From Saccoglossus kowalevskii (taxonomy: Eukaryota; Hemichordata; Enteropneusta; Harrimaniidae): a stretch of DNA of 20,894 bases. This document shows positions 2,494 through 17,065 of this stretch, piece after piece. The stretch lies in assembly GCF_000003605.2 (NCBI RefSeq), contig NW_003140510.1, positions 1 to 20,894 on the forward strand, read 5' to 3'. Each line of letters opens with the position of its first letter. Position 1 is the stretch's first letter. The position numbers were made by a program, and so were the translations under genes. The notes beneath the pieces are model-generated. The model was not told where the DNA came from. It did no database searches and was given only the letters and a program-made list of their open reading frames with translations.

Positions 2494-2590
2494 TGAATAT
2501 TCGTCAGAATTGGATGTAATTTAATACTTCGGCTAGGCAAAAAATCCCGGGAAAACGTTAGTATGTACGGTGGAATAAAAATGATGATGA

Positions 2591-2710
2591 GCTCTACTGC
2601 ACGTGGTATTCTCAGCCTGTCTCCCATGCAAGTAATAACCACGTCCGATGCAGCTTAACTTCAGTGATCTGACTACAACTGGTGTATTCTGCAATGGTTT
2701 GTCAGTAGGC
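2591..2710 (-). rRNA. 5S rRNA unit 14, divergent
   Basis: 120 nt with one extra base in helix I ('gctctactgc'). 'agtaataaccacgtcc', 'gatctgactacaact' and 'gtcag' give several stem and loop changes. First of the trimer 14-16, repeated at 93-95. Confidence 0.82.
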
Positions 2711-2807
2711 TGAAAATTCGTCGGAATTGGTTAACAATTAATGCTTCGGCTAGGCAAAAAATTCCGGGAAAAAGTTAGTATGTACGGTGGAATAACAATG
2801 TTAATGT

Positions 2808-2926
2808 GCCTACTGCACGTGATATTCCCAGCCGGTCTCTCATGCAAGTACTGTCCACGCCCGATGAAGCTTAACTTCAGTGATCGGACGTGAACTGGAG
2901 TATTCTGAAATGGAGTGGCAGTAGGC
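2808..2926 (-). rRNA. 5S rRNA unit 15, divergent
   Basis: 119 nt. 'ctctcatgcaagtactgtcc', 'gatgaagc' and 'tctgaaatggagtgg'. The T run past its 3' end is broken ('aataacaatg'). Nearly repeated as unit 94. Confidence 0.84.
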
Positions 2927-3023
2927 TGAATATTCGTCGGAATTGGATGTCATTTAATGCTACGGCTAGGCAAAAAATCATGGGAAAATGTTAGTATGTA
3001 ATGTGGAATAAAAATGTCGATGA

Positions 3024-3141
3024 GCCTACTGCACGTGATATTCTCAGCCGGTCTCCCAAGCAAGTACTAACCACGTCCGGTTAGCTTAACTTCAGTGATC
3101 AGACGAGAACTGGTGTATTCTCCAATGGTTTGGCAGTAGGC
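3024..3141 (-). pseudogene. 5S unit 16, 1-nt deletion
   Basis: 118 nt. 'cacgtccggttagc' lacks one base at the A box/intermediate element junction. 'cccaagcaag' changes the C box. Confidence 0.82.
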
Positions 3142-3238
3142 TGAATATTCGTCAGAATTGGATGTCGATTAACGCTTCGGCTAGGCAAAAAATCAAGGGA
3201 AAAAGATAGTATGTACGGTGGAATAAAAATGTTGATGA

Positions 3239-3358
3239 GCCTAATGCACATGGTACTTCCAGGCAGGTCTCCCATGCAAGTACTAACCACGCCCGATGCA
3301 GCTTAACTTCAGTGATCAGACGAGAACTGGTGTATTCTGCAATGCTTTGGCAGTAGGC
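3239..3358 (-). rRNA. 5S rRNA unit 17
   Basis: 120 nt, one extra base at 'tggtacttccaggcagg'. 'gcctaatgc' disturbs helix I. Loop E is retained. Confidence 0.83.
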
Positions 3359-3455
3359 TGAATATTCGTCCGAATTGTATGTCATTTAATGCTTCGTCTA
3401 GGCAAAAAATCATGGGAAAAAGTTAGAATGTAATGTGGAATAAAAATGTTGATGG

Positions 3456-3574
3456 GCCTACTGCACGTGGTATTCCCAGCCGGTCTCCCGTGCAAGTCCT
3501 AACCATGCCCGATGCGGCTTAACTTCAGTGATCGGACGAGAACTGGTGTATTCTGCAATGGTTTGGCAGTAGGC
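3456..3574 (-). rRNA. 5S rRNA unit 18
   Basis: 119 nt, four substitutions from the majority: 'cccgtgc', 'gtcctaacc', 'catgccc' and 'gatgcggc'. The 5' half matches the majority. Confidence 0.89.
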
Positions 3575-3671
3575 TGAATATTCGTCGGAATTGGATTTCA
3601 ATTAATATTTCGGCTAGGCAAATAATCAAGGGAAAAAGATAGTACGTACGGTGGAATAAAAATGTTGATAA

Positions 3672-3790
3672 GCCTACTGCACGTGGCATTCCCAGCAGGT
3701 CTCCCATGCAAGTACTAACCACGCCCGATGCAGCTTAACCTCAGTGGTCGGACGAGAACTGGTGTACTCTGCAATGGTTTGGCAGTAGGC
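3672..3790 (-). rRNA. 5S rRNA unit 19
   Basis: 119 nt. 'ggcattcccagcagg', 'cttaacctcagtggtcgg' and 'gtactctgc'. Confidence 0.87.
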
Positions 3791-3887
3791 TGAATATTCG
3801 TTGGAATTGGATGTCATTTAATGCTACGGCTAGGCAAAAAATCATGGGTAAAATTTAGTATGTAATGTGGAATAAAAATGTTGATGA

Positions 3888-4006
3888 GCCTACTGCATGT
3901 GGTATTCCCAGCCGGTCTCCCATGCAAGTACTAAACACGCCCGATGTAGCTTAACATCAGTGATCGGACAAGAACTTGTGTGTTCTGCAATGGTTTGACA
4001 GTAGGC
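3888..4006 (-). rRNA. 5S rRNA unit 20
   Basis: 119 nt. 'tgcatgtgg', 'taaacacg', 'gtagcttaacatc', 'gacaagaacttgtgtgttc' and 'gacag'. Confidence 0.86.
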
Positions 4007-4103
4007 TGTATATTCGTCAGAATTGCATGTAGTTTAACACTTCGGCAAGGCAAAAAATCCCGGAAAAAAGTTGGTATGTGCGGTGGAATAAAAATGTTGA
4101 AAA

Positions 4104-4222
4104 GCCTACTGCACATGGTATTCCCAGCCGGTCTACCATGCAAGTACTAACCACGCCCGATGCAGCTTAACTTCAGTGATCGGACGAGAACTGGTGTATT
4201 CTGCAATGGTTTGGCAGTAGGC
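4104..4222 (-). rRNA. 5S rRNA unit 21
   Basis: 119 nt, two substitutions ('cacatgg', 'gtctaccatg'). Start of the duplicated block whose second copy begins at unit 39. Confidence 0.9.
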
Positions 4223-4318
4223 TGAATACTCGTCGGAATTGGATGTCATTTAATGCTACGGCTAGACAAATAATCATGGGAAAATTTAGTATGCAATGTG
4301 AAATAAAAATGTTGATGA

Positions 4319-4437
4319 GCCTACTGCACGTGGTATTCCCAGCTGGTCTCCCATGCAAGTACTAACCACGCCCGATACAGCTTAACTTCAGTGATCGGAC
4401 GAGAACTGGTGTATTCTGCAATGGTTTGGCAGTAGGC
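4319..4437 (-). rRNA. 5S rRNA unit 22, near-majority
   Basis: 119 nt, only two substitutions from unit 47 ('cagctgg', 'gatacagc'). All five helices can form; a good candidate for an expressible gene. Confidence 0.92.
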
Positions 4438-4534
4438 TGAATATTCGTCGGAATTGGATGTAATTTAATACTTCGGCTAGGCAAAAAATCCCGGGAAAAC
4501 GTTCGTATGTACGGTGGAATAAAAATGATGATGA

Positions 4535-4654
4535 GCCTAATGCACGTGGTATTCCCAGCAATGTCTCCCATGCAAGTACTAACCACGCCCGATGCAGCTT
4601 AACTTCAGTGATCGAACGGGAACTGGTGTGTTCTTCAATGGTTTGACAGTAGGC
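4535..4654 (-). rRNA. 5S rRNA unit 23, variant
   Basis: 120 nt, one extra base in 'agcaatgtctcc'. Altered loop C ('gatcgaacggg'), 'ttcttcaatgg' breaking helix II, and 'gcctaatgc' breaking helix I. Probably not functional. Confidence 0.84.
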
Positions 4655-4751
4655 TGAATATTCGTCAGAATTGCATGTCGTTTAACGCTTCGGCTAGGCA
4701 AAAAATCCCGGGGAAAATTTGGTAAGTACAGTGGAATAAAAATGTTGATGA

Positions 4752-4856
4752 GCACATGATACTCCAGGCCGGTCTCCCATGCATCCACGCCCGATGCAGC
4801 TTAACATCAGTGATCAGACGAGAACTGGTGTATTCTGCAATGGTTTGGCAGTAGGC
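4752..4856 (-). pseudogene. 5S unit 24, 3'-truncated and loop-E-deleted
   Basis: 105 nt. In addition to the loop E deletion it lacks 7 nt of the 3' end ('gatgagcacatg'), removing the 3' arm of helix I. The deletion lies between two 'gc' dinucleotides and is shared only with unit 42. Confidence 0.88.
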
Positions 4857-4953
4857 TGAATATTCGTCCGAATTGTATGTCATTTAACGCTACGGCTAGA
4901 CAAATAATCATGGGAAAAATTTAGTATGCAATGTGAAATAAAAATGTTGATGA

Positions 4954-5072
4954 GCCTACTGCACGTGGTATTCCCAGCTGGTCTCCCATGCAAGTACTAA
5001 CCACGCCCGATACAGGTTAACTTCAGTGATCGGACGAGAACTTGTGTACTCTGCAATGGTTTGGCAGTAGGC
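4954..5072 (-). rRNA. 5S rRNA unit 25
   Basis: 119 nt. 'cagctgg', 'gatacaggttaac' and 'cttgtgtactctgc'. Same sequence in unit 43 and close to unit 84. Confidence 0.88.
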
Positions 5073-5169
5073 TGAATATTCGCTGGAATTGGATGTAATT
5101 TAATACGTCGGTTAGGCAAAAAATCCCGGGAAAAAATTGGTATGAACGGTGGAATGAAAATGTTGATTA

Positions 5170-5288
5170 GCCTACTGCACGTGGTATTCCCAACCGGTCT
5201 CCCATGCATGTACTAACCAAGTCCTATGCAGCTTAACTTCAGTGATCGAACGGGAACTGATGTGTTCTTCAATGGTTTGACAGTAGGC
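5170..5288 (-). rRNA. 5S rRNA unit 26, chimeric
   Basis: 119 nt. The 3' half ('catgcatgtactaacc', 'aagtcctatgc') matches unit 44; the 5' half ('gatcgaacggg', 'actgatgtgttcttc', 'gacag') matches unit 45. A crossover within 'cttaacttcagtgatcg' joins them. Confidence 0.86.
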
Positions 5289-5384
5289 TGAATATTCGTC
5301 AGAATTGCATGTCGTTTAACGCTTCGCTAGGCAAAAAATCCCGGGGAAAATTTGGTATGTACAGTGGAATAAAAATGTTGATGA

Positions 5385-5496
5385 ACCTAATGCACATGAT
5401 ACTCCAGGCCGGTCTCCCATGCAACCACGCCCGATGCAGCTTAACTTCAGTGATCAGACGAGAACTGGTGTATTCTGCAATGGTTTGGCAGTAGGC
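5385..5496 (-). pseudogene. 5S unit 27, loop-E-deleted
   Basis: 112 nt. Lacks the 7 loop E bases; first 3' base changed ('gaacctaatgc'). Repeated as unit 46. Confidence 0.87.
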
Positions 5497-5592
5497 TGAA
5501 TATTCGTCCGAATTGTATGTCATTTAACGCTTCGTCTAGGCAAAAAACACGGGAAAAAGATAGTATGTATGGTGGAATGAAAATGTTCATCA

Positions 5593-5711
5593 GCCTACTG
5601 CACGTGGTATTCCCAGCCGGTCTACCATGCAAGTACTAACCACGCCCGATGCAGCTTAACTTCAGTGATCGGACGAGAACTGGTGTATGCTGCAATGGTT
5701 TGGCAGTAGGC
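5593..5711 (-). rRNA. 5S rRNA unit 28, near-majority
   Basis: 119 nt, two substitutions ('gtctaccatg', 'gtgtatgctgc'). Helices intact. Confidence 0.91.
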
Positions 5712-5808
5712 TGAATACTCGTCGGAATTGGATGTCATTTAATGCTACGGCTAGACAAATAATCATGGGAAAAATTTAGTATGCAATGTGAAATAAAAAT
5801 ATTGATGA

Positions 5809-5926
5809 GCCTACTGCACGTGGTATTCCCAGCTGGTCTCCCATGCAAGTAGAAACCACGTCCGGTGAGCTTAACTTCAGTGATCGGACTAGAACTGGTG
5901 TATTCTGCAATGGTTTGTCAGTACGC
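5809..5926 (-). pseudogene. 5S unit 29, 1-nt deletion
   Basis: 118 nt. 'agtagaaaccacgtccggtg' alters loop E and shortens the A-box side. 'gtcagtacgc' breaks helix I. Same as unit 48. Confidence 0.83.
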
Positions 5927-6023
5927 TAAAAATTCGTCGGAATTGGTTAACAATTAATGCTTCGGCTAGGCAAAAAATTCCGGGAAAAAGTTAGTATGTA
6001 CGGTGGAATAAAAATGTTGATGT

Positions 6024-6142
6024 GCCTACTGCATGTGATATTCCCAGCCGGTCTCTCATGCAAGTACTGTCCACGCCCGATGCAGCTTAACTTCAGTGAT
6101 CGGACGAGAACTGGTGTATTCTGCATTGGTTTGACAGTAAGC
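6024..6142 (-). rRNA. 5S rRNA unit 30
   Basis: 119 nt. 'tgcatgtgatattc', 'ctctcatgcaagtactgtcc' and 'gacagtaagc', related to units 15 and 94. Same as unit 49. Confidence 0.86.
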
Positions 6143-6240
6143 TGAATATTCGTCGGAATTGGATGTAATTTAGTACTTCGGTTAGGCAAAAAATCATGGA
6201 AAAAAAGTTAGTAAGTACGGTGGAATGAAAATGTTGATAA

Positions 6241-6359
6241 GCCTACTGCACGTGGTATTCCCAACCGGTCTCCCATGCAAGTACCAACCACGTCCTATGC
6301 AACTTAACTTCAGTGATCAGACGAGAACTGGTGTATTCTGCTATGGTTTGGCAGTAGGC
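6241..6359 (-). rRNA. 5S rRNA unit 31
   Basis: 119 nt. 'caaccgg', 'agtaccaaccacgtcctatg', 'caacttaac' and 'ctgctatgg'. Four-T terminator flank. Confidence 0.86.
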
Positions 6360-6456
6360 TGAATATTCGTCGGAATTGGATGTAATTTAATACTTCCGCT
6401 AGGCAAAAAATCCCGGGAAAACGTTAGTATGTACGGTGGAATAAAAATGATGATGA

Positions 6457-6575
6457 GCCTAGTGCACGTGGTATTCCCAACAATGTCTCCCATGCAAGTA
6501 CTAACCACGCCCGACGCAGCTTAACTTCAGTGATCGACGAGAACTGGTGTATTCTGCAATGGTTTGGCAGTAGGC
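6457..6575 (-). rRNA. 5S rRNA unit 32
   Basis: 119 nt as an extra base in 'acaatgtctcc' is offset by a missing one in 'gatcgacgag' (loop C). 'gcctagtgc' gives a changed helix I pair. Confidence 0.83.
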
Positions 6576-6673
6576 TGAATATTCGTCGGAATTGAAGTCA
6601 TTTATACTGCTACGGCTATGCAAAAAATCATGGGTAAAAGTTAGTATGTAATGTGGAATAAAAATGTTGATGA

Positions 6674-6785
6674 GCCTACTACACGTGGTATTCCAGGCCG
6701 GTCTCCCATGCAACCACGACCGATGCAGCTTAACTTCAGTGATCGGACGTGAACTGGTGTATTCTGCAATGGTTTGGCAGTAGGC
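6674..6785 (-). pseudogene. 5S unit 33, loop-E-deleted
   Basis: 112 nt. 'ctactacac' and 'cacgaccgatgc' mark it. Identical dimer partner of unit 35, 425 bp on. Confidence 0.87.
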
Positions 6786-6882
6786 TGAATATTCGTTGGA
6801 ATTGGATTTCAATTAATGTTTCGGCTAGGAAAAAAATCAAGGGAAAAAGATAGAATGTACGGTGGAATAAAAATATTGATAA

Positions 6883-7001
6883 GCCTACTGCACATAGCAT
6901 TCCCAGCAGGTCTCCCATGCAAGTACTAACCACGCCCGATGCAGCTTAACTTCAGTGATCGGACGAGAACTGGTGTATTCTGCAATGGTTTGGCAGTAGG
7001 C
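6883..7001 (-). rRNA. 5S rRNA unit 34
   Basis: 119 nt. Only the 3' third differs from the majority ('cacatagcattcccagcagg'). Confidence 0.9.
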
Positions 7002-7098
7002 TGAATATTCGTCGGAATTGGATGTCATTTAATGCTACGGCTAGGCAAAAAATCATGGGTAAAAGTTAGTATGTAATGTGGAATAAAAATGTTGATGA

Positions 7099-7210
7099 GC
7101 CTACTACACGTGGTATTCCAGGCCGGTCTCCCATGCAACCACGACCGATGCAGCTTAACTTCAGTGATCGGACGTGAACTGGTGTATTCTGCAATGGTTT
7201 GGCAGTAGGC
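7099..7210 (-). pseudogene. 5S unit 35, loop-E-deleted
   Basis: 112 nt. Copy of unit 33 in the two-unit duplication. Confidence 0.87.
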
Positions 7211-7307
7211 TGAATATTCGTTGGAATTGGATTTCAATTAATGTTTCGGCTAGGAAAAAAATCAAGGGAAAAAGATAGAATGTACGGTGGAATAAAAATA
7301 TTGATAA

Positions 7308-7426
7308 GCCTACTGCACGTATCATTCCCAGCAGGTCTCCCATGCAAGTACTAACCACGCCCGATGCAGCTTAACTTCAGTGATCGGACGAGAACTGGTG
7401 TATTCTGCAATGGTTTGGCAGTAGGC
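7308..7426 (-). rRNA. 5S rRNA unit 36
   Basis: 119 nt, four substitutions, all near the 3' end ('cacgtatcattcccagcagg'). Copy of unit 34. Confidence 0.9.
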
Positions 7427-7523
7427 TGAATATTCGTCGGAATTGGATGTCATTTAATGCTACGGCTAGGCAAAAAATCATGGGTAAAAGTTAGTATATA
7501 ATGTGGAATAAATAAGTTGATGA

Positions 7524-7642
7524 GTCTACTGAACGTGGTATTCTCAGCCGGTCTCCCATGCAAGTACTAACCACGCCCAATGCAGCTTAACTTCAGTGAT
7601 CAAACGGGAACTGGTGTGTTCTGCAATGGTTTGACAGTAGGC
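7524..7642 (-). rRNA. 5S rRNA unit 37, variant
   Basis: 119 nt. Altered loop C ('gatcaaacggg'), 'gtctactgaacg' disturbing helix I. Its proximal T run is broken ('aataaataag'). Confidence 0.84.
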
Positions 7643-7739
7643 TGAATATTCCTCAGAATTGCCTGTGGTTTAACGCTTCGGCTAGACAAAAAATCCCGGG
7701 AAAAATTTGGTATGTACGGTGGAATAAAAATGTTGATGA

Positions 7740-7851
7740 GCCTAATGCACATGATATTCCAGGCCGGTCTCCCATGCAACCACGCCCGATGCAGCTTAAC
7801 TTCAGTGATCGGACGAGAACTGGTGTATTCTGCAATGGTTTGGCAGTAGGC
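7740..7851 (-). pseudogene. 5S unit 38, loop-E-deleted
   Basis: 112 nt. 'cacatgatattccagg' with the 7-nt loop E deletion; rest of the 5' half is majority. Confidence 0.88.
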
Positions 7852-7947
7852 TGAATATTCGTCCGAATTGTATGTCATTTAACGCTTCGTCTAGGCAAAA
7901 AACACGGGAAAAAGATCGTATGTAAGGTGGAATAAAAATGGTCATCA

Positions 7948-8066
7948 GCCTACTGCACGTGGTATTCCCAGCCGGTCTACCATGCAAGTACTAACCACGC
8001 CAGATGCAGCTTAACTTCAGTGATCGGACGAGAACTGGTGTATTCTGCAATGGTTTGGCAGTAGGC
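7948..8066 (-). rRNA. 5S rRNA unit 39, near-majority
   Basis: 119 nt, two substitutions ('gtctaccatg', 'cacgccagatgc'). Begins the second copy of the block that starts at unit 21. Confidence 0.91.
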
Positions 8067-8162
8067 TGAATACTCGTCGGAATTGGATGTCATTTAATGC
8101 TACGGCTAGACAAATAATCATGGGAAAATTTAGTATGCAATGTGAAATAAAAATGTTGATGA

Positions 8163-8281
8163 GCCTACTGCACGTGGTATTCCCAGCTGGTCTCCCATGC
8201 AAGTACTAACCACGCCCGATACAGCTTAACTTCAGTGATCGGACGAGAACTTATGTACTCTGCAATGGTTTGGCAGTAGGC
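8163..8281 (-). rRNA. 5S rRNA unit 40
   Basis: 119 nt. 'cagctgg', 'gatacagc' and 'cttatgtactctgc'. Counterpart of unit 22. Confidence 0.89.
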
Positions 8282-8378
8282 TGAATATTCGTCGGAATTG
8301 GATGTAATTTAATACTTCGGCTAGGCAAAAAATCCCGGGAAAACGTTCGTATGTACGGTGGAATAAAAATGATGATGA

Positions 8379-8498
8379 GCCTAATGCACGTGGTATTCCC
8401 AGCAATGTCTCCCATGCAAGTACTAACCACGCCCGATACAGCTTAACTTCAGTGATCGGACGAGAACTGGTGTGTTCTTCAATGGTTTGACAGTAGGC
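8379..8498 (-). rRNA. 5S rRNA unit 41, variant
   Basis: 120 nt. 'agcaatgtctcc' (one extra base), 'gatacagc', 'gtgttcttc' and 'gacag'. Loop C is normal, unlike its counterpart unit 23. Confidence 0.85.
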
Positions 8499-8595
8499 TG
8501 AATATTCGTCAGAATTGCATGTCGTTTAACGCTTCGGCTAGGCAAAAAATCCCGGGGAAAATTTGGTAAGTACAGTGGAATAAAAATGTTGATGA

Positions 8596-8700
8596 GCACA
8601 TGATACTCCAGGCCGGTCTCCCATGCATCCACGCCCGATGCAGCTTAACATCAGTGATCAGACGAGAACTGGTGTATTCTGCAATGGTTTGGCAGTAGGC
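8596..8700 (-). pseudogene. 5S unit 42, 3'-truncated and loop-E-deleted
   Basis: 105 nt. Same double deletion as unit 24, 3844 bp away, so copied by the block duplication. Confidence 0.88.
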
Positions 8701-8797
8701 TGAATATTCGTCCGAATTGTATGTCATTTAACGCTACGGCTAGACAAATAATCATGGGAAAAATTTAGTATGCAATGTGAAATAAAAATGTTGATGA

Positions 8798-8916
8798 GCC
8801 TACTGCACGTGGTATTCCCAGCTGGTCTCCCATGCAAGTACTAACCACGCCCGATACAGGTTAACTTCAGTGATCGGACGAGAACTTGTGTACTCTGCAA
8901 TGGTTTGGCAGTAGGC
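8798..8916 (-). rRNA. 5S rRNA unit 43
   Basis: 119 nt. Counterpart of unit 25 ('gatacaggttaac', 'cttgtgtactctgc'). Confidence 0.88.
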
Positions 8917-9013
8917 TGAATATTCGTTGGAATTGGATGTAATTTAATACGTCGGTTAGGCAAAAAATCCCGGGAAAAAATTGGTATGAACGGTGGAATG
9001 AAAATGTTGATTA

Positions 9014-9132
9014 GCCTCCTGCACGTGGTATTCCCAACCGGTCTCCCATGCATGTACTAACCAAGTCCTATGCAGCTTAACTTCAGTGATCGGACGAGAA
9101 CTGGTGTATTCTGCTATGGTTTGGCAGTAGGC
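9014..9132 (-). rRNA. 5S rRNA unit 44
   Basis: 119 nt. 'cctcctgc', 'caaccgg', 'catgcatgtactaacc', 'aagtcctatgc' and 'ctgctatgg'. Parent of the 3' half of unit 26. Confidence 0.87.
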
Positions 9133-9229
9133 TGAATATTCGTCGGAATTGGATGTAATTTAATACTTCGGCTAGGCAAAAAATCCCGGGAAAACGTTAG
9201 TATGTACGGTGGAATAAAAATGATGATGA

Positions 9230-9349
9230 GCCTAATGCACGTGGTATTCCCAGCAATGTCTCCCATGCAAGTACTAACCACGCCCGATGCAGCTTAACTT
9301 CAGTGATCGAACGGGAACTGATGTGTTCTTCAATGGTTTGACAGTAGGC
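9230..9349 (-). rRNA. 5S rRNA unit 45, variant
   Basis: 120 nt. 'agcaatgtctcc', 'gatcgaacggg', 'actgatgtgttcttc' and 'gacag'. The unit with no separate partner in the first block copy; its 5' half appears in unit 26. Confidence 0.85.
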
Positions 9350-9445
9350 TGAATATTCGTCAGAATTGCATGTCGTTTAACGCTTCGCTAGGCAAAAAAT
9401 CCCGGGGAAAATTTGGTATGTACAGTGGAATAAAAATGTTGATGA

Positions 9446-9557
9446 ACCTAATGCACATGATACTCCAGGCCGGTCTCCCATGCAACCACGCCCGATGCAG
9501 CTTAACTTCAGTGATCAGACGAGAACTGGTGTATTCTGCAATGGTTTGGCAGTAGGC
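9446..9557 (-). pseudogene. 5S unit 46, loop-E-deleted
   Basis: 112 nt. Counterpart of unit 27, 4061 bp away, with the same changed first base ('gaacctaatgc'). Confidence 0.87.
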
Positions 9558-9602
9558 TGAATATTCGTCCGAATTGTATGTCATTTAACGCTTCGTCTAG
9601 GC

Positions 9603-9608
9603 AAAAAA
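9603..9608 (-). terminator. Distal T6 run, possible backup terminator (representative)
   Basis: TTTTTT on the minus strand 46-51 nt past the 3' end of unit 47 (plus 'aggcaaaaaaca'). Present in most spacer types as 'ggcaaaaaatc', but lost in the type reading 'gacaaataatc'. A backup role is an inference. Confidence 0.5.
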
Positions 9609-9639
9609 CACGGGAAAAAGATAGTATGTATGGTGGAAT

Positions 9640-9644
9640 AAAAA
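9640..9644 (-). terminator. Proximal RNA polymerase III terminator of unit 47 (representative)
   Basis: TTTTT on the minus strand starting 10 nt past the helix I 3' end (plus 'aataaaaatg'). It recurs after most units. It is four T's after units 4, 13, 26, 31, 44, 59, 65, 79, 85 and others, and broken after units 15, 37, 68 and 94. Confidence 0.75.
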
Positions 9645-9653
9645 TGTTCATCA

Positions 9654-9772
9654 GCCTACTGCACGTGGTATTCCCAGCCGGTCTCCCATGCAAGTACTAA
9701 CCACGCCCGATGCAGCTTAACTTCAGTGATCGGACGAGAACTGGTGTATTCTGCAATGGTTTGGCAGTAGGC
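9654..9772 (-). rRNA. 5S rRNA unit 47, exact majority sequence
   Basis: 119 nt matching the array majority at every position, so it is the reference for this annotation. RNA positions: helix I 1-9/111-119 (nine Watson-Crick pairs), helix II core TGCAG 18-22/CTGCA 58-62, helix III CAGT 30-33/ACTG 46-49, helix V CGTGG 68-72/CCACG 105-109, helix IV pairs 82-96 and 83-95, loop C 34-45, loop E about 73-78 with 99-104. By alignment to the Xenopus numbering the A box is 51-65, the intermediate element 68-73 and the C box 81-98. It is one base longer than the usual GCC-to-GGC span of 118, the extra base lying in the 5' strand of helix II. In a ribosome it would sit in the large-subunit central protuberance with L5 and L11 family proteins. 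The most likely expressible copy in the window, but expression cannot be judged from sequence. Confidence 0.94.
9675..9722 (-). promoter_or_regulatory. Internal control region of 5S unit 47 (representative)
   Basis: By alignment to the Xenopus 5S gene the A box is 9708-9722 (AGTTAAGCTGCATCG on minus), the intermediate element 9700-9705 (CGTGGT) and the C box 9675-9692 (TGCATGGGAGACCGGCTG). These are where TFIIIA and TFIIIC bind in type 1 RNA polymerase III promoters. The C box differs from Xenopus by two bases, and these two form a base pair in helix IV. The same layout recurs in all full-length units. Confidence 0.8.
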
Positions 9773-9797
9773 TGAATACTCGTCGGAATTGGATGTC

Positions 9798-9804
9798 ATT
9801 TAAT
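9798..9804 (-). promoter_or_regulatory. TATA-like element upstream of unit 47 (representative)
   Basis: ATTAAAT on the minus strand, 26-32 nt before the first base of the 5S gene. The same motif at the same distance occurs in nearly every spacer ('atttaat' on plus), even between otherwise divergent spacer types. A TATA-like element near -30 is known to help 5S transcription in several animals, plants and fungi. Confidence 0.6.
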
Positions 9805-9869
9805 GCTACGGCTAGACAAATTATCATGGGAAAAATTTAGTATGCAATGTGAAATAAAAATATTGATGA

Positions 9870-9987
9870 GCCTACTGCACGTGGTATTCCCAGCTGGTCT
9901 CCCATGCAAGTAGAAACCACGTCCGGTGAGCTTAACTTCAGTGATCGGACTAGAACTGGTGTATTCTGCAATGGTTTGTCAGTACGC
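9870..9987 (-). pseudogene. 5S unit 48, 1-nt deletion
   Basis: 118 nt. Counterpart of unit 29 ('agtagaaaccacgtccggtg', 'gtcagtacgc'). Confidence 0.83.
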
Positions 9988-10084
9988 TAAAAATTCGTCG
10001 GAATTGGTTAACAATTAATGCTTCGGCTAGGCAAAAAATTCCGGGAAAAAGTTAGTATGTACGGTGGAATAAAAATGTTGATGT

Positions 10085-10203
10085 GCCTACTGCATGTGAT
10101 ATTCCCAGCCGGTCTCTCATGCAAGTACTGTCCACGCCCGATGCAGCTTAACTTCAGTGATCGGACGAGAACTGGTGTATTCTGCATTGGTTTGACAGTA
10201 AGC
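10085..10203 (-). rRNA. 5S rRNA unit 49
   Basis: 119 nt. Counterpart of unit 30 ('ctctcatgcaagtactgtcc', 'gacagtaagc'). Confidence 0.86.
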
Positions 10204-10300
10204 TGAATATTCGTCGGAATTGGATGTAATTTAGTACTTCGGTTAGGCAAAAAATCATGGAAAAAAGTTAGTAAGTACGGTGGAGTAAAAATGTTGATGA

Positions 10301-10420
10301 GCCTACTGGGACATATTATTCCCAGCCGGTCTCCCATGCAAGTACTAACCACGCCCGATGGAGCTTAACTTCAGTGATCGGACGAGAAGTAGTGTATTCT
10401 GCAATGGTTTGGCAGTAGGC
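10301..10420 (-). rRNA. 5S rRNA unit 50, divergent 3' end
   Basis: 120 nt. 'gcctactgggacatattattc' destroys the helix V 3' arm; 'gagaagtagtg' alters helix III. The duplicated block ends just before this unit. Confidence 0.82.
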
Positions 10421-10513
10421 TGATATTCGTTGGAATTGGATGTAATTTAATACTTCGTCTAGGCAAAAATCACGGGAAAAGATAGTATGTATGGTGAATA
10501 AAAATATTCATCA

Positions 10514-10632
10514 GCCTACTGCACGTGGTATTCCCAGCCGGTCTCCCATGCAAGTACAAACCACGCCCGATGCAGCTTATCTTCAGAGATCGGACGAGAA
10601 CTGGTGTATTCTGCAATGGTTTGGCAGTAGAC
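10514..10632 (-). rRNA. 5S rRNA unit 51
   Basis: 119 nt. 'agtacaaacc', 'cttatcttcagag' and 'gcagtagac' (one helix I pair broken). Confidence 0.86.
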
Positions 10633-10729
10633 TGAATATTTGTCGGAATTGGATTTCAATTAATGCTTCGGCTAGGCAAAAAATCCCGGGAAAAATTTAG
10701 TATGTACGGTGGTATAAAAATGTTCATCA

Positions 10730-10847
10730 GCTACTGCACGTGGTATTCCCAGCCGGTCTCCCATGCAAGTACTAAGCACGCCCGATGCAGCTTAACTTCA
10801 GAGATCGGACGAGAACTGGTGTATTCTGCAATGGTTTGGCAGTAGGC
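10730..10847 (-). pseudogene. 5S unit 52, 1-nt deletion in helix I
   Basis: 118 nt. One C lost ('cagctactgc'); 'taagcacg' and 'cttcagag'. Otherwise majority. Confidence 0.84.
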
Positions 10848-10944
10848 TGGATATTCGTTGGAATTGGATGTAATTTATTACTTTGGCTAGGCAAAAAATC
10901 CCGGGAAAAAGTTAGTATGTACGGTGGAATAAAAATGTTGATGA

Positions 10945-11063
10945 GCCTAATGCACGTGGTATTCCCAGCCTGTCTCCCATGCAAGTACTAACCACGCCCG
11001 ATGCAGCTTAACTTCAGTGATCGGACGAGAACTGGTGTATTCTGCAATGGTTTGGCAGTAGGC
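10945..11063 (-). rRNA. 5S rRNA unit 53, near-majority
   Basis: 119 nt, two substitutions ('gcctaatgc', 'cagcctgtc'). The first breaks one helix I pair. Confidence 0.9.
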
Positions 11064-11160
11064 TGAATATTCGTCGGAATTGGATGTCATTTATTTCTAC
11101 GGCTAGGCAAAAAATCATGGGTAAAAGTAAGTATGTAATGTGGTATAAAAAAGTTGATGA

Positions 11161-11279
11161 GCCTACTGCACGTGGTATTCTCAGCCGGTCTCCCATGCAA
11201 GTACTAACCACGCCCGATGCAGCTTAAATTCAGTGATCGAACGGGAACTGGTGTGTTCTGCAATGGTTTGACAGTAGGC
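11161..11279 (-). rRNA. 5S rRNA unit 54, variant
   Basis: 119 nt. 'ctcagccgg', 'cttaaattc', altered loop C ('gatcgaacggg'), 'gtgttctgc' and 'gacag'. Confidence 0.86.
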
Positions 11280-11376
11280 TGAATATTCGTCAGAATTGCA
11301 TGTCGTTTAACGCTTCGGCTAGGCAAAAAATCCCGGGAAAAATTTGGTATGTATGGTGGAATAAAAATGTTGATGA

Positions 11377-11488
11377 GCCTAACGCACATGGTATTCCAGG
11401 CCGGTCTCCCATGCAACCACGCCCGATCCAGCTTAACTTCAGTGATCGGACGAGAACTGGTGTATTCTGCAATGGTTTGGCTGTAGGC
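11377..11488 (-). pseudogene. 5S unit 55, loop-E-deleted
   Basis: 112 nt. 'cctaacgcacatgg', 'gatccagc' and 'ggctgtaggc' besides the 7-nt loop E loss. Confidence 0.87.
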
Positions 11489-11585
11489 TGAATATTCGTC
11501 TGAATTGTATGTCATTTAATGCTTCGACTAGGCAAAAAATCATGGGAAAAATTTAGAATGTAATGTGGAATAAAAATGTTGATGG

Positions 11586-11703
11586 GCCTACTGCACTTGG
11601 TATTCCCAGCCGGTCTCCCGTGCAAGTTCTAACCATGCCCGATGCAGCTTAACTTCAGTGATCGGACGAGAACTGGTGTATTCTGCATGGTTTGGCAGTA
11701 GGC
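11586..11703 (-). pseudogene. 5S unit 56, 1-nt deletion
   Basis: 118 nt. One A lost in helix II ('ctgcatgg'); 'cacttgg' and 'cccgtgcaagttctaacc'. Confidence 0.84.
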
Positions 11704-11800
11704 TGAATATTTGTCGGAATTGGATTTCAATTAATGCTTCGGCTAGGCAAAAAATCCCGGGAAAAAGATAGTATGTACGGTGGAATAAAAATGTTCATCA

Positions 11801-11918
11801 GCCAACTGCACGTGGTATTCCCAGCAGTCTCCCATACAAGTACTAACCACGGCCGATGCAGCTTAACTTCAGAGATCGGACGAGAACTGGTGTATTCTGC
11901 AATGGTTTGGCAGTAGAC
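11801..11918 (-). pseudogene. 5S unit 57, 1-nt deletion
   Basis: 118 nt. 'cccagcagtctcccatacaa' lacks one base in the C box region; 'gccaactgc' and 'gcagtagac' disturb helix I. Confidence 0.83.
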
Positions 11919-12016
11919 TGAATATTCGTCGGAATTGGATGTCATTTATTTGCTACGGCTATGCAAAAAATCATGGGTAAATGTTAGTATGTAATGTGGA
12001 ATAAAAATGTTGATGA

Positions 12017-12135
12017 GCCTACTGCACGTGGTATTCCCTGCCGGTCTCCCATGCAAGTACTAACCACGCCCGATGCAGCTTATATTCAGTGATCGGACGA
12101 AAACTGGTGTGTTCTGCAATGGTTTGACAGTAGGC
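12017..12135 (-). rRNA. 5S rRNA unit 58
   Basis: 119 nt. 'ccctgccgg', 'cttatattcag', 'acgaaaactgg', 'gtgttctgc' and 'gacag'. Same type as units 78 and 90. Confidence 0.87.
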
Positions 12136-12232
12136 TGAATATTCGTCAGAATTGCCTGTGGTTTAACGCTTTGGCTAGGCAAAAAATCCCGGGAAAAATT
12201 TTGTATGTACGGTGGAATGAAAATGTTGATAA

Positions 12233-12351
12233 GCCTACTGCACGTGGTATTCCCAACCGATCTCCCATGCAAGTACTAACCACGTCCTATGCAGCTTAAC
12301 TTCAGTGATCGGACGAGAACTGGTGTATTCTGCTATGGTTTGGCAGTAGGC
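12233..12351 (-). rRNA. 5S rRNA unit 59
   Basis: 119 nt. 'caaccgatctcc', 'acgtcctatgc' and 'ctgctatgg'. Counterpart of units 79 and 91; four-T terminator flank. Confidence 0.87.
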
Positions 12352-12448
12352 TGAATATTCGTCGGAATTGGATGTAATTTAATACTTCGGCTAGGCAAAA
12401 AATCCCGGGAAAACGTTCGTATGTACGGTGGAATAAAAATGATGATGA

Positions 12449-12568
12449 GCCTAATGCACGTGGTATTCCCAGCAATGTCTCCCATGCAAGTACTAACCAC
12501 GCCCGATGCAGCTTAACTTCAGTGATCGGACGAGAACTGGTGTATTCTGCAATGGTTTGGCAGTAGGC
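12449..12568 (-). rRNA. 5S rRNA unit 60
   Basis: 120 nt. 'gcctaatgc' and 'agcaatgtctcc' (one extra base); 5' two thirds match the majority. Confidence 0.87.
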
Positions 12569-12665
12569 TGAATATTCGTCGGAATTGGATGTCATTTAAT
12601 GCTACGGCTAGGCAAAAAATCATGGGTAAAAGTTAGTATATAATGTGGAATAAAAAAGTTGATGA

Positions 12666-12784
12666 GCCTACTGCACGTGGTATTCTCAGCCGGTCTCCCA
12701 TGCAAGTACTAACCACGCCCGATGCAGCTTAACTTCAGTGATCAAACGGGAACTGGTGTGTTCTTCAATGGTTTGACAGTAGGC
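12666..12784 (-). rRNA. 5S rRNA unit 61, variant
   Basis: 119 nt. 'ctcagccgg', altered loop C ('gatcaaacggg'), 'gtgttcttc' and 'gacag'. Position 1 of the six-unit repeat. Confidence 0.86.
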
Positions 12785-12881
12785 TGAATATTCGTCAGAA
12801 TTGCATGTCGTTTAACGCTTCGGCTAGGCAAAAAATCCCGGGGAAAATTTGGTATGTGCAGTGGAATAAAAATGTTGATGA

Positions 12882-12992
12882 GCCTAATGACATGATACTC
12901 CAGGCCGGTCTCCCATGCAACCACCCCTGATGCAGCTTAACTTCAGTGATCAGACGAGAACTGGTGTATTCTGCAATGGTTTGGCAGTAGGC
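12882..12992 (-). pseudogene. 5S unit 62, loop-E-deleted
   Basis: 111 nt. Loop E loss plus one base lost at 'ctaatgacatg'; 'cacccctgatgc'. Position 2 of the six-unit repeat. Confidence 0.87.
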
Positions 12993-13087
12993 TGAATATT
13001 CGTCCGAATTGTATGTCATTTAACACTTCGTCTAGGCAACAAACACGGGACTAGATAGTATGTATGGTGGAATAAAAATGTTCATCA

Positions 13088-13206
13088 GCCTACTGCACGT
13101 GGTATTCCCAGCCGGTCTACCATGCAAGTACTAACCACGCCCGATGCAGCTTAACTTCAGTGATCGGACGAGAACTGGTGTATTCTGCAATGGTTTGGCA
13201 GTAGGC
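13088..13206 (-). rRNA. 5S rRNA unit 63, one change from majority
   Basis: 119 nt. Differs from unit 47 only at 'gtctaccatg' (C box/loop D). Position 3 of the six-unit repeat and a good candidate gene. Confidence 0.92.
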
Positions 13207-13303
13207 TGAATACTCGTCGGAATTGGATGTCATTTAATGCTACGGCTAGACAAATAATCATGGGAAAAATTTAGTATGCAATGTGAAATAAAAATGTTGA
13301 TGA

Positions 13304-13422
13304 GCCTACTGCACGTGGTATTCCCAGCTGGTCTCCCATGCAAGTACTAACCACGCCCGATACAGCTTAACTTCAGTGATCAGACGAGAACTTGTGTACT
13401 CTGCAATGGTTTGGCAGTAGGC
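13304..13422 (-). rRNA. 5S rRNA unit 64
   Basis: 119 nt. 'cagctgg', 'gatacagc', 'gatcagac' and 'cttgtgtactctgc'. Position 4 of the six-unit repeat. Confidence 0.88.
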
Positions 13423-13519
13423 TGAATATTCGTTGGAATTGGATGTAATTTAATACGTCGGTTAGGCAAAAAATCCCGGGAAAAAATTGGTATGAACGGT
13501 GGAATGAAAATGTTGATAA

Positions 13520-13638
13520 GCCTACTGCACGTGGTATTCCCAACCGGTCTCCCATGCAAGTACCAACCACGTCCTATGCAGCTTAACTTCAGTGATCAGA
13601 CGAGAACTGGTGTATTCTGCTATGGTTTGGCAGTAGGC
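13520..13638 (-). rRNA. 5S rRNA unit 65
   Basis: 119 nt. 'caaccgg', 'agtaccaaccacgtcctatg', 'gatcagac' and 'ctgctatgg'. Position 5. Confidence 0.87.
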
Positions 13639-13735
13639 TGAATATTCGTCGGAATTGGATGTAATTTAATACTTCGGCTAGGCAAAAAATCCCGGGAAAA
13701 CGTTAGTATGTATGGTGGAATAAAAATGATGATGA

Positions 13736-13855
13736 GCCTAATGCACGTGGTATTCCCAGCAATGTCTCCCATGCAAGTACTAACCACGCCCGATGCAGCT
13801 TAACTTCAGTGATCAAACGGGAACTGGTGTGTTCTTCAATGGTTTGACAGTAGGC
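13736..13855 (-). rRNA. 5S rRNA unit 66, chimeric
   Basis: 120 nt. The 3' half is position-6 type ('agcaatgtctcc', as unit 60); the 5' half is position-1 type ('gatcaaacggg', 'gtgttcttc', as unit 61). One unit has thus been lost, giving a local five-unit period of 1071 bp. Confidence 0.86.
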
Positions 13856-13952
13856 TGAATATTCGTCAGAATTGCATGTCGTTTAACGCTTCGGCTAGGC
13901 AAAAAATCCCGGGGAAAATTTGGTATGTGCAGTGGAATAAAAATGTTGATGA

Positions 13953-14063
13953 GCCTAATGACATGATACTCCAGGCCGGTCTCCCATGCAACCACCCCTG
14001 ATTCAGCTTACTTCAGTGATCAGACGAGAACTGCTGTTATTTCTGCAATGGTTTGCAGTAGGC
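13953..14063 (-). pseudogene. 5S unit 67, loop-E-deleted with extra indels
   Basis: 111 nt. Like unit 62 but with further small indels: 'cttacttc', 'ctgctgttatttctgc' and 'gtttgcag'. Confidence 0.86.
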
Positions 14064-14158
14064 TGAATATCGTCGGAATTGGATGTAATTTAATACTTCG
14101 GCTAGGCAAACATTCCGGGAAAAAGTTAGTATGTATGGTAGAATAACAATGTTGATGG

Positions 14159-14277
14159 GCCTACTGCACGTGGTATTCCCAGCCGGTCTCCCATGCAAGT
14201 CCTAACCATGCCCGATGCGGCTTAACTTCAGTGATCGGACGAGAACTGGTGTATTCTGCAATGGTTTGGCCGTTGGC
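14159..14277 (-). rRNA. 5S rRNA unit 68
   Basis: 119 nt. 'agtcctaaccatgccc', 'gatgcggc' and 'gccgttggc' (two helix I mismatches). The T run past the 3' end is broken ('aataacaatg'). Confidence 0.85.
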
Positions 14278-14374
14278 TGAATATTTGTCGGAATTGGATT
14301 TCAATTAATGCTTCGGCTAGCCAAAAAATCACGGGAAAAAGATAGTATGTATGGTGGAAATAAAAAGTTGATTA

Positions 14375-14493
14375 GCCTACTACACGTGGTATTCCCAGCA
14401 GGTCTCCCATGCAAGTACTAACCACGCCCAATGCAGCTTAACATCAGTGATCGGACGAGAACTGCTGTATTCTGCAATGGTTTGGCAGTAGGC
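14375..14493 (-). rRNA. 5S rRNA unit 69
   Basis: 119 nt. 'ctactacac', 'agcagg', 'cccaatgc', 'cttaacatc' and 'actgctg'. Confidence 0.86.
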
Positions 14494-14590
14494 TGAATAT
14501 TCGTCGGAATAGGATGTAATTTAATACTTCGGCTAGGCAAAACATTCCGGGAAAATGTTAGTATGTATGGTAGTATAAAAATGTTGATGA

Positions 14591-14702
14591 GCCTAATGCA
14601 CATGGTTATCCAGGCCGGTCTCCCATGCAACCACGCCCGATGCAGCTTAACTTCAGTGATCGGACGAGAACTGGAGTATTCTGCAATGGTTTGGCAGTAG
14701 GC
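14591..14702 (-). pseudogene. 5S unit 70, loop-E-deleted
   Basis: 112 nt. 'cacatggttatccagg' and 'actggag' plus the 7-nt loop E loss. Confidence 0.87.
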
Positions 14703-14799
14703 TGAATATTCGCCCGAATTGTATGTCATTTAATGCTTCGTCTAGGCAAAAAATCATGGGAAAAAGTTAGAATGAAATGTGGAATAAAAATGTTGATGG

Positions 14800-14918
14800 G
14801 CCTACTGCACGTGGTATTCTCAGCCGGTCTCCCGTGCAAGTCCTAACCATGCCTGATGCGGCTTAACTTCAGTGATCGGACGAGAACTGGTGTAATCTGA
14901 AATGGTTTGGCAGTAGCC
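14800..14918 (-). rRNA. 5S rRNA unit 71, divergent
   Basis: 119 nt. 'cccgtgcaagtcctaacc', 'atgcctgatgcggc', 'gtgtaatctgaaatgg' and 'gcagtagcc'. Confidence 0.84.
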
Positions 14919-15015
14919 TGAATATATGTCGGAATTGGATTTCAATTAATGTTTCGGCTAGGCAAAAAATCAAGGGAAAAAGATAGTATGTACGGTGGAA
15001 TAAAAATGTTGATAA

Positions 15016-15134
15016 GCCTACTGCACGTGGCATTCCCAACAGGTCTCCCATGCAAGTACTAACCACGCCCGATGCAGCTTAACTTCAGTGATCGGACGAG
15101 AACTGCTGTATTCTGCAATGGTTTGGCAGTAGGC
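15016..15134 (-). rRNA. 5S rRNA unit 72
   Basis: 119 nt. 'ggcattcccaacagg' and 'actgctg'; otherwise majority. Confidence 0.88.
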
Positions 15135-15233
15135 TGAATATTCGTGGGAATTGGATGTAATTTAAATACTTCGGCTAGGCAAAAATCCCGGGAAATAGTT
15201 TAGTATGTATGGTGGAATAAAAATGTTGATGAA

Positions 15234-15347
15234 GCCTAATGCACATGGTATTCCAGGGACTGGCTGCCATGCAACCACGCCCGATGCACGCTTAACTTCA
15301 GTGATCGGACGAGAACTGGTGTATTCTGCAATGGTTTGGCAGTAGGC
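15234..15347 (-). pseudogene. 5S unit 73, loop-E-deleted with insertions
   Basis: 114 nt. Loop E loss plus insertions at 'ttccagggactggctgcc' and 'gatgcacgctt'. Confidence 0.86.
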
Positions 15348-15444
15348 TGAATACTCGTCGGAATTGGATGTCATTTAATGCTACGGCTAGACAAATAATC
15401 ATGGGAAAAATTTAGTATGCAATGTGAAATAAAAATGTTGATGA

Positions 15445-15563
15445 GCCTACTGCACGTGGTATTCCCAGCTGGTCTCCCATGCAAGTACTAACCACGCCCG
15501 ATGCAGCTTAACTTCAGTGAACGGACGAGAACTGGTGAATTCTGCAATGGTTTGGCAGTAGGC
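15445..15563 (-). rRNA. 5S rRNA unit 74, near-majority
   Basis: 119 nt, three substitutions ('cagctgg', 'gtgaacgg', 'ggtgaattc'). Confidence 0.9.
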
Positions 15564-15660
15564 TGAATGTTCGTCGGAATTGGATGTCATTTAATGCTAC
15601 GGCTAGGCAAAAAATCATGGGTAAAAGTTAGTATATAATGTGGAATAAAAAAGTTGATGA

Positions 15661-15779
15661 GCCTACTGCACGTGGTATTCTCAGCCGGTCTCCCATGCAA
15701 GTACTAACCACGCCCGATGCAGCTTAACTTCAGTGATCGAACGGGAACTGGTGTGTTCTTCAATGGATTGACAGTAGGC
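15661..15779 (-). rRNA. 5S rRNA unit 75, variant
   Basis: 119 nt. 'ctcagccgg', altered loop C ('gatcgaacggg'), 'gtgttcttcaatggattg' and 'gacag'. Position 1 of the six-unit repeat. Confidence 0.86.
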
Positions 15780-15876
15780 TGAATATTCGTCAGAATTGAA
15801 TGTCGTTTAACGCTTCGGCTAGGCAAAAAATCCCGGGGAAAATTTGGTATGTACAGTGGAATAAAAATGTTGATGA

Positions 15877-15987
15877 GCCTAATGCACATGATACTCCAGG
15901 CCGGTCTCCCATGCAACCACGCCCGATGCAGCTTAACTTCAGTGATCAGACGAGAACTGGTGTATTCTGCAATGGTTTGGCAGTAGC
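15877..15987 (-). pseudogene. 5S unit 76, loop-E-deleted
   Basis: 111 nt. Loop E loss and one G missing at the 5' end ('cagtagctg'). Position 2. The next spacer also has several one-base deletions. Confidence 0.87.
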
Positions 15988-16079
15988 TGATATTCGTCCG
16001 AATTTGTATGTCATTTAACGCTTCATCTAGCAAAAACACGGGAAAAGATAGTATGTATGGTGAATAAAAATTTTCATCA

Positions 16080-16198
16080 GCCTACTGCACGTGGTATTCC
16101 CAGCCGGTCTACCATGCAAGTACTAACCACGCCCGATGCAGCTTAACTTCAGTGATCGGACGAGAACTGGTGTATTCTGCAATGGTTTGGCAGTAGGC
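16080..16198 (-). rRNA. 5S rRNA unit 77, one change from majority
   Basis: 119 nt. Differs from unit 47 only at 'gtctaccatg'. Position 3. Confidence 0.92.
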
Positions 16199-16295
16199 TG
16201 AATACTCGTCGGAATTGGATGTCATTTAATGCTACGGCTAGACAAATAATCATGGGAAAAATTTAGTATGCAATGTGAAATAAAAATGTTGATGA

Positions 16296-16414
16296 GCCTA
16301 CTGCACGTGGTATTCCCTGCCGGTCTCCCATGCAAGTACTAACCACGCCCGATGCAGCTTATATTCAGTGATCGGACGAAAACTGGTGTGTTCTGCAATG
16401 GTTTGACAGTAGGC
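16296..16414 (-). rRNA. 5S rRNA unit 78
   Basis: 119 nt. 'ccctgccgg', 'cttatattcag', 'acgaaaactgg', 'gtgttctgc' and 'gacag'. Position 4, alternate form. Confidence 0.87.
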
Positions 16415-16511
16415 TGAATATTCGTCAGAATTGCCTGTGGTTTAACGTTTTGGCTAGGCAAAAAATCCCGGGAAAAATTTTGTATGTACGGTGGAATGAA
16501 AATGTTGATAA

Positions 16512-16630
16512 GCCTACTGCACGTGGCATTCCCAACCGATCTCCCATGCAAGTACTAAGCACGTCCTATGCAGCTTAACTTCAGTGATCGGACGAGAACT
16601 GGTGTATTCTGCTATGGTTTGGCAGTAGGC
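16512..16630 (-). rRNA. 5S rRNA unit 79
   Basis: 119 nt. 'ggcattcccaaccgatctcc', 'taagcacgtcctatgc' and 'ctgctatgg'. Position 5, alternate form. Confidence 0.87.
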
Positions 16631-16727
16631 TGAATATTCGTCGGAATTGGATGTAATTTAATACTTCGGCTAGGCAAAAAATCCCGGGAAAACGTTCGTA
16701 TGTACGGTGGAATAAAAATGATGATGA

Positions 16728-16848
16728 GCCTAATGCACGTGGTATTCCCAGCAATGTCTCCCATGCAAGTACTAACCACGCCCGATGCAGCTTAACTTCA
16801 GTGATCGGACGAGAACTGGTGTATTCTGCAATGGTTTGGCAGTAAGGC
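16728..16848 (-). rRNA. 5S rRNA unit 80
   Basis: 121 nt. 'gcctaatgc', 'agcaatgtctcc' (one extra) and 'cagtaaggc' (one extra in helix I). Position 6. Confidence 0.84.
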
Positions 16849-16946
16849 TGAATATTCGTCGGAATTGGATGTCATTTAATGCTACGGCTAGGCAAAAAAT
16901 CATGGGTAAAAGTTAGTATATAATGTGGAATAAAAAAAGTTGATGA

Positions 16947-17065
16947 GCCTACTGCACGTGGTATTCTCAGCCGGTCTCCCATGCAAGTACTAACCACGCC
17001 CGATGCAGCTTAACTTCAGTGATCGAACGGGAACTGGTGTGTTCTTCAATGGTTTGACAGTAGGC
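16947..17065 (-). rRNA. 5S rRNA unit 81, variant
   Basis: 119 nt. Same type as units 61, 75 and 87, with the altered loop C. Position 1. Confidence 0.86.

Follow-up and report, generated by a model that had tools for sequence, protein, structure and literature searches.

Satellite DNA derived from 5S rRNA genes is a kind of repeat already known, from the frog satellite PcP190 (PMC11675491; this paper and PMC12294053, PMC3215682 and PMC3433437 are cited throughout for the portions of their text that were available). PcP190 is a tandem satellite of ~190 bp in which a 120-bp 5S-derived part is joined to an unrelated variable part, and it is found on contigs separate from the 5S genes (PMC11675491, PMC12294053). 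For eukaryote 5S rRNA itself, the available text of PMC3433437 reports that the exchange of AU and GC is the commonest compensatory change (199 of 299 cases), and that helices I, III and IV are the most affected by compensated changes. That study compares species, whereas here we compare the founder of a satellite with the canonical genes of one genome. The terms "compensatory" and "secondary structure" are absent from the available main text of PMC11675491, and we found no literature on compensatory changes in a 5S-derived satellite, as judged from titles and listings, which does not prove its absence; the available parts of PMC10886601 (small-RNA-derived LTR elements) and PMC2048585 (honey bee rRNA) hold nothing that bears on the case.

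Results

The window, by which we mean the whole stretch of 20,894 nucleotides of Saccoglossus kowalevskii DNA that was analyzed, is filled from end to end by a tandem array with a period of ~216 bp, composed of 120 bp of 5S-like sequence and 96 bp of spacer (Table 1). TRF reported a period of 216 with 93.4 copies over 1-20049 and additional rows up to 20876, and the Rfam 5S_rRNA model (RF00001) gave 97 matches in the window, all on the minus strand and scoring from 44.3 to 100.9 bits; every one of the 97 exceeds the gathering cut-off of 38 bits and so belongs to the 5S rRNA family. The best match, unit 47, had been placed by an earlier note on this DNA at 9654-9772, where the 5S match does lie although it is one base longer, and the helix strings quoted in that note are all present in it. 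The same note had called it the majority sequence, and it is indeed the column consensus of the 97 copies, but it is matched exactly by only one of them, unit 47 itself, and by none of 115 copies on two other contigs (C3145 and C3149). Unit 47 folds as a 5S RNA at -47.1 kcal/mol, and none of 200 shuffles was as good (mean -33.85, sd 3.44, z-score -3.85). Upstream of the gene, the TTAAAT motif is a possible TATA-like element.

Table 1. Coordinates in the window of the array, of unit 47 with its flanking motifs, and of the helix positions discussed in the text.
Feature	Position	Strand	Remarks
Tandem 5S-like array	1..20894	minus	TRF and 97 RF00001 matches; contig stretch C3147
Unit 47	9653-9772	minus	5S-like copy; RF00001 100.9 bits, best of 97
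T5 run	9640..9644	minus	starts 9 bases past gene end; exact in 77/92 units
TTAAAT at -31	9798..9803	minus	exact in 52/92 units
Helix I, position 7 (U)	9766	minus	partner 9660; canonical G-C to U-A, two transversions
Helix I, position 113 (A)	9660	minus	partner of position 7
Helix II, position 17, inserted U	9756	minus	absent from host canonical; uncompensated
Helix II, position 18 (U)	9755	minus	partner 9711; canonical C-G to U-A, both CpG transitions
Helix II, position 62 (A)	9711	minus	partner of position 18
Helix III, position 31 (A)	9742	minus	partner 9725; canonical G-C to A-U, both CpG transitions
Helix III, position 48 (U)	9725	minus	partner of position 31
Helix IV, position 83 (C)	9690	minus	pairs with G95 at 9678; common to host canonical
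Helix V, position 70 (U)	9703	minus	pairs with A107 at 9666; common to host canonical

Neighboring units of the array are no more similar to each other than distant ones are. Units 22-30 are mostly closest to units 40-49, ~3.8-4.1 kb apart, and four unit pairs between these blocks are without difference in the aligned columns; growth of the array is in part by segmental duplication, and these duplicated units represent recent amplification within an old array. A subfamily of 15 of the 97 copies, as counted by alignment rows, lacks a 7-base piece of loop E, approximately positions 73-79, carries linked changes further down (e.g., 5384-5496, 9445-9557 and 18452-18564) and would be without a normal loop E; a separate string test for the deletion also returned 15 units, with u02 in and u81 out relative to the alignment rows. 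At 1105-1398 and 19929-20166, 5S-like copies stand head to tail with a 117-118-bp period and no spacer, an arrangement also seen at 332-568 of a stretch of C3149 (L022).

The host assembly (572 Mb in 4830 contigs) holds canonical 5S arrays on contigs separate from the window. The RF00001 search of the host gave 18,217 first-look candidates, of which 47 were scored, and those scored all lie on C3485, C2212 and C3801, in repeats of about 1.14 and 1.58 kb. From 78,866 bases of these three contigs we obtained 51 canonical copies with alignments of at least 100 bases, and they are nearly uniform, the 46 copies of 119 nt differing by 0.97% on average. As the canonical reference we took a copy from C2212, to which 20 copies are identical and from which 17 of the 51 differ by C111T alone, a change that turns a helix I G-C into G.U. 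There are two types of canonical locus, with repeats of ~1579 and ~1139 bp and different gene-adjacent spacers (L014-L017 on C2212 and C3801; L011, L012 and L018 on C3485). All six canonical copies examined for it have TTTT directly 3' of the gene, whereas the T5 run of the array lies 9 bases downstream, so that the array copies are without the T-run directly after the gene that a functional gene would carry. The 96-bp spacer of the array has no match at E 1e-6 in the 78,866 bases.

The same satellite is present on C3145 (56 copies) and C3149 (59 copies), and there the 120-nt consensus is identical to unit 47, with no difference (115 of 118 hits were used, 3 under 100 nt being dropped). They came to light when ten contigs numbered near 3147, a non-random sample, were read over their initial 2,000 or 4,000 bases. 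At the diagnostic sites, the copies on the three satellite contigs hardly ever show the canonical state, which points to a single founder type. Other contigs with similar numbers begin with other satellites, of 53-, 50- and 36-bp units (L019 on C3146, L023 on C3150 and L027 on C3130), and this part of the assembly thus seems rich in satellite contigs. On C3148:1-4000 (L020), pieces of 27-29 bases from the internal promoter region of the 5S gene (its positions ~63-91) recur inside an otherwise different repeat, several of them ~944 bp apart (e.g., 348-376, 712-740, 1656-1682, 2600-2626, 3544-3570 and 3907-3935); L020 has no Rfam match and may belong to a second family of repeats that contains part of the 5S promoter.

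The array consensus is ~92% like the host canonical 5S (110 of 120 columns), from which it departs by 9 substitutions and 1 insertion. Eight of the nine substitutions are in stems, where they form three compensated pairs (in helices I, II and III; Table 1) and two repairs of wobbles (position 20, U.G to C-G; position 26, G.U to A-U) and break no pair, and position 12 is the sole loop substitution of the founder. As U stands at both 17 and 18, either could be counted as the inserted base. The minimum energy of the founder is -47.1 vs. -50.5 kcal/mol for the canonical gene, and its helix II contains the uncompensated inserted U. Only 1 of the 10 founder differences is in the region 49-112, vs. 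88 of 157 array variants (Fisher p = 0.006) or, on 207 copies from the three contigs, 107 of 204 (p = 0.009), although this boundary was set after the data had been seen, and with 50-97 the values are p = 0.045 and, on 207 copies, 0.053.

These comparisons change the case that the earlier note had made. It had read helix III as changed from CGGT/ACCG to CAGT/ACTG, and this is a true double change relative to the host canonical gene (31-48, G-C to A-U). The helix V change and the helix IV flip from G-C to C-G that it also listed are of a different nature, because the host canonical gene has the same GUGG/CCAC and the same helix IV pair; these states are ordinary for the lineage, and we rejected both as marks of this array. 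Hence two of the three changes named as compensatory, those in helices IV and V, turned out to be ordinary for the host. Helices I and II, which were said to keep their complements, do contain them, but each has undergone a double change and helix II has the uncompensated U besides. The proposal that the founder was under selection for its fold consequently loses the evidence of helices IV and V, and stands on helix III together with the doubles in helices I and II that had gone unnoticed.

In which direction did these changes occur? At 7, 12, 17 (no insertion), 18, 48 and 62 the Drosophila start and mid probes have the letters of the host canonical gene, and because they match it and not the window at these six sites, the window side looks derived, the outgroup being one partial sequence, with position 31 outside its probes and its end probe placed by eye and not by MAFFT. 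At position 48 the Bombyx probe and, in the available text, Pollicipes (PMC3215682) also agree with the canonical gene. At position 26, by contrast with those sites, the window has the A of Drosophila and Pollicipes (PMC3215682, in part), so that there the canonical gene may be the changed side. The arthropod-type pattern to which the helices had originally been compared agrees with printed letters where these exist: the helix III 3' strand ACCG is in the Drosophila and Bombyx probes and in a Pollicipes primer (PMC3215682, in part), and for helices V (3' strand) and IV (3' base) the agreement, read by eye, is with the Drosophila probe only. Tribolium, on the other hand, already has ACTG, the window's helix III 3' strand, and a primer of it carries U48 (PMC11202950); among the papers found to hold this short string it alone was recognized as 5S work, the others being judged by title. 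One of two Pollicipes primers in the available text has A31 and the 5' strand CAGT (PMC3215682); halves of the helix III variant therefore arose elsewhere. Scans of viral contigs and genome contigs with eukaryote-type 5S patterns gave two distant eukaryote-type 5S loci (L001 and L002), and L001, in an alignment read by eye, has the helix IV C-G pair of the window, which tells us only that this flip occurs elsewhere. An exact 32-base string from the window had 0 matches in viral contigs, and there was no match in phages and plasmids at E 0.001.

Could the pair-keeping pattern of the founder be due to chance? When 9 substitutions were placed randomly on the canonical 5S with a transition weight of 2, the combination of 0 broken pairs and at least three double changes appeared in 0 of 20,000 runs without a CpG boost, and in 3, 80 and 221 per 20,000 with CpG transitions boosted 10x, 50x and 1000x, these being figures for pairs and a three-double-change threshold that were picked after the pattern had been seen, with the predicted fold of unit 47 itself as the pair list. 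A tenfold boost is more than the array itself calls for, since its CpG sites carry ~2.2x as many C-to-T and G-to-A variants per site as its remaining C/G sites do. In helices II and III both members of the compensated pair changed by CpG transition, which accounts for four of the six changes in such pairs; neutral decay would favor these transitions also, and some pairs of this kind could be products of CpG decay. The canonical 5S has 12 CpGs, of which 6 are changed in the founder, and these six make up precisely three of the four pairs in which CpG fully faces CpG (4 of 924 choices, by our own arithmetic). Except for the inserted U, the changes of the founder since its split from the canonical gene keep base pairs, and we take the founder to have been, very probably, a folded 5S variant under selection.

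The copies that now make up the array behave differently. Among the 92 full units, a set without the end copy and 4 oddly spaced copies, the mean difference is 9.6% in the 5S-like part and 15.2% in the spacer, and diversity is lower in the former (0.096 vs. 0.152, site permutation p = 0.0016). Single-copy variants are about as common in the gene as in the spacer (66 of 360 possible vs. 48 of 288, p = 0.60), as are all variant types together (157 of 360 vs. 133 of 288, p = 0.53), whereas variants shared by at least 4 copies are less common in the gene (49 of 360 vs. 60 of 288, p = 0.015). The lower diversity and the fewer shared variants suggest that the array may have been under some constraint at an early stage. 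Single-copy variants are alike at paired and unpaired sites (p = 0.78), and 28 pair-preserving variants were seen where 28.3 were expected (32 and 32.3 on 207 copies). The covariation score in alignment A1 (92 rows, 84 distinct, the 5 shortest copies left out) is 0.070, equal to the shuffled 0.070, and 1 pair has a double change, against a shuffled mean of 2.3 and 3 to 10 when partners were slid. The conclusion about the founder does not carry over to the array. In the 207 copies (174 distinct), 8 cells are changed on both sides and 1 of the 8 is a standard pair; the median copy has 7 differences, and all 38 pairs are kept in 20 of the 207. The variants of the array copies do not avoid breaking the fold, as those of a functional gene would, and recent array variants show no sign of selection on fold or promoter.

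Discussion

We conclude, with a probability of roughly 80%, that the window is part of a 216-bp satellite that arose from a variant host 5S gene whose fold was under selection, and that its copies have since decayed neutrally. The history we propose has three phases. In the first, as sequence comparison shows, a 5S paralogue split from the canonical lineage and its differences kept the folded RNA: three pairs were exchanged on both sides, two wobbles became Watson-Crick pairs and none was lost, and its internal promoter part changed little. The RNA of such a founder would presumably have been transcribed, incorporated into ribosomes and used. In the second phase, one variant gene was amplified, presumably by unequal exchange, together with ~96 bp of flanking sequence that does not resemble the canonical spacers, giving the long arrays, with segmental duplications, that we observe on at least three contigs. 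In the third, the copies decay: their recent variants bear no mark of selection for fold or promoter, so that the founder survives in the examined copies only as a consensus, matched by unit 47 alone. Several observations count against this explanation: the T-run 9 bases 3' of the gene end, which bears on the 3' end of the founder RNA, the uncompensated U in helix II, the CpG transitions, the lower diversity of the gene and its fewer shared variants.

A major question is whether the paired changes require selection at all. If the founder was already a pseudogene, C-to-T decay at facing CpGs may have produced them by chance, since, of the four ways in which two facing CpGs can undergo one transition each, two leave a compensated pair, and the helix II and III doubles, the change of half the canonical CpGs and the roughly doubled frequency of such transitions in the array are all in keeping with this. 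The helix I double, though, consists of two transversions, no pair is broken, and the changed CpGs fall on three of the four facing pairs; moreover, the neutral simulations rarely reproduce the pattern even with a CpG boost, on which ground we rejected pure CpG decay, and the real decay of the array leaves a standard pair in only one of eight doubly changed cells. We regard decay alone as very improbable. Was the founder, instead, the ordinary main 5S of an ancestor, or of a hybridizing species, that was later replaced by the present canonical arrays? The canonical gene and the founder differ at 10 places, the existence of canonical sub-types indicates that canonical turnover is active, and position 26 has the same A in the window, Drosophila and Pollicipes, yet at six other sites the Drosophila probes, one partial outgroup, side with the canonical gene, and replacement seems decidedly doubtful.

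Might the array itself be a living second 5S locus in which enough copies still work under birth-and-death evolution? Some copies retain every pair and one is identical to the consensus, the T5 run and TTAAAT are still exact in most and in over half of the units, respectively (Table 1), and the gene has relatively few of the older, shared variants. We nonetheless consider this quite unlikely, because recent variants show no constraint on fold or promoter, the copies have a median of 7 differences, the loop E subfamily has lost 7 bases and clean canonical arrays exist in the genome. A related scenario, which we hold to be unlikely though worth keeping in view, is that the founder type is a second living 5S (e.g., germ-line or stage specific) with few intact copies elsewhere, of which the satellite is a decaying offshoot; if so, the consensus of the satellite would be the fossil print of a specialized ribosomal RNA. 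That the apparent decay is sequencing or assembly error is scarcely credible: the whole window is one array and hard to assemble, but the same variants are found again in subfamilies and in duplicated segments, where several unit pairs are identical, the canonical arrays of the same assembly are clean and three contigs agree on the consensus, and we rejected error for these reasons.

If a variant 5S gene under selection did found the satellite, one family separates two phases, that of a protected RNA, in which stem changes keep pairs, and that after amplification, in which pair-keeping is at chance level, and together these provide an internal control for the reading of compensatory changes as evidence of function. 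The array is also a record of a variant 5S sequence whose gene may since have been lost. There are two warnings here: facing CpG sites in a stem can yield compensated-looking pairs by mutation alone, and selection on the fold of a founder must not be counted as evidence that an array is functional.

5S-like internal promoter sequence is used outside ribosomal genes by SINE3 elements and, reportedly, by Cassandra as well. In contrast to these mobile elements, our three contigs look like pure tandem arrays, and with 216-bp units on each and a spacer unlike the canonical ones they represent a 5S-derived satellite. The host resembles Pollicipes (PMC3215682, in its available part) and Tribolium (PMC11202950) in having several 5S types or truncated copies per genome; in both the spacer varies more than the gene, as it does in the array by overall diversity, though not by single-copy variants. 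Tribolium, however, is nearly uniform, with 99.4% identity in the genes and 94.1% in the T. castaneum spacer (PMC11202950) vs. 90.4% and 84.8% in the array, and the recent variants of the array are without visible constraint. The likeness to PcP190, as described in the available portions of PMC11675491 and PMC12294053, is in a 5S-derived part that is joined to an unrelated part, arranged in tandem and located apart from the working 5S genes, whereas the array differs in its 216-bp unit, in its host, which to judge by its 5S seems an invertebrate, and in the 5S part of its founder, which is ~92% like the host 5S as against about 70% in PcP190.
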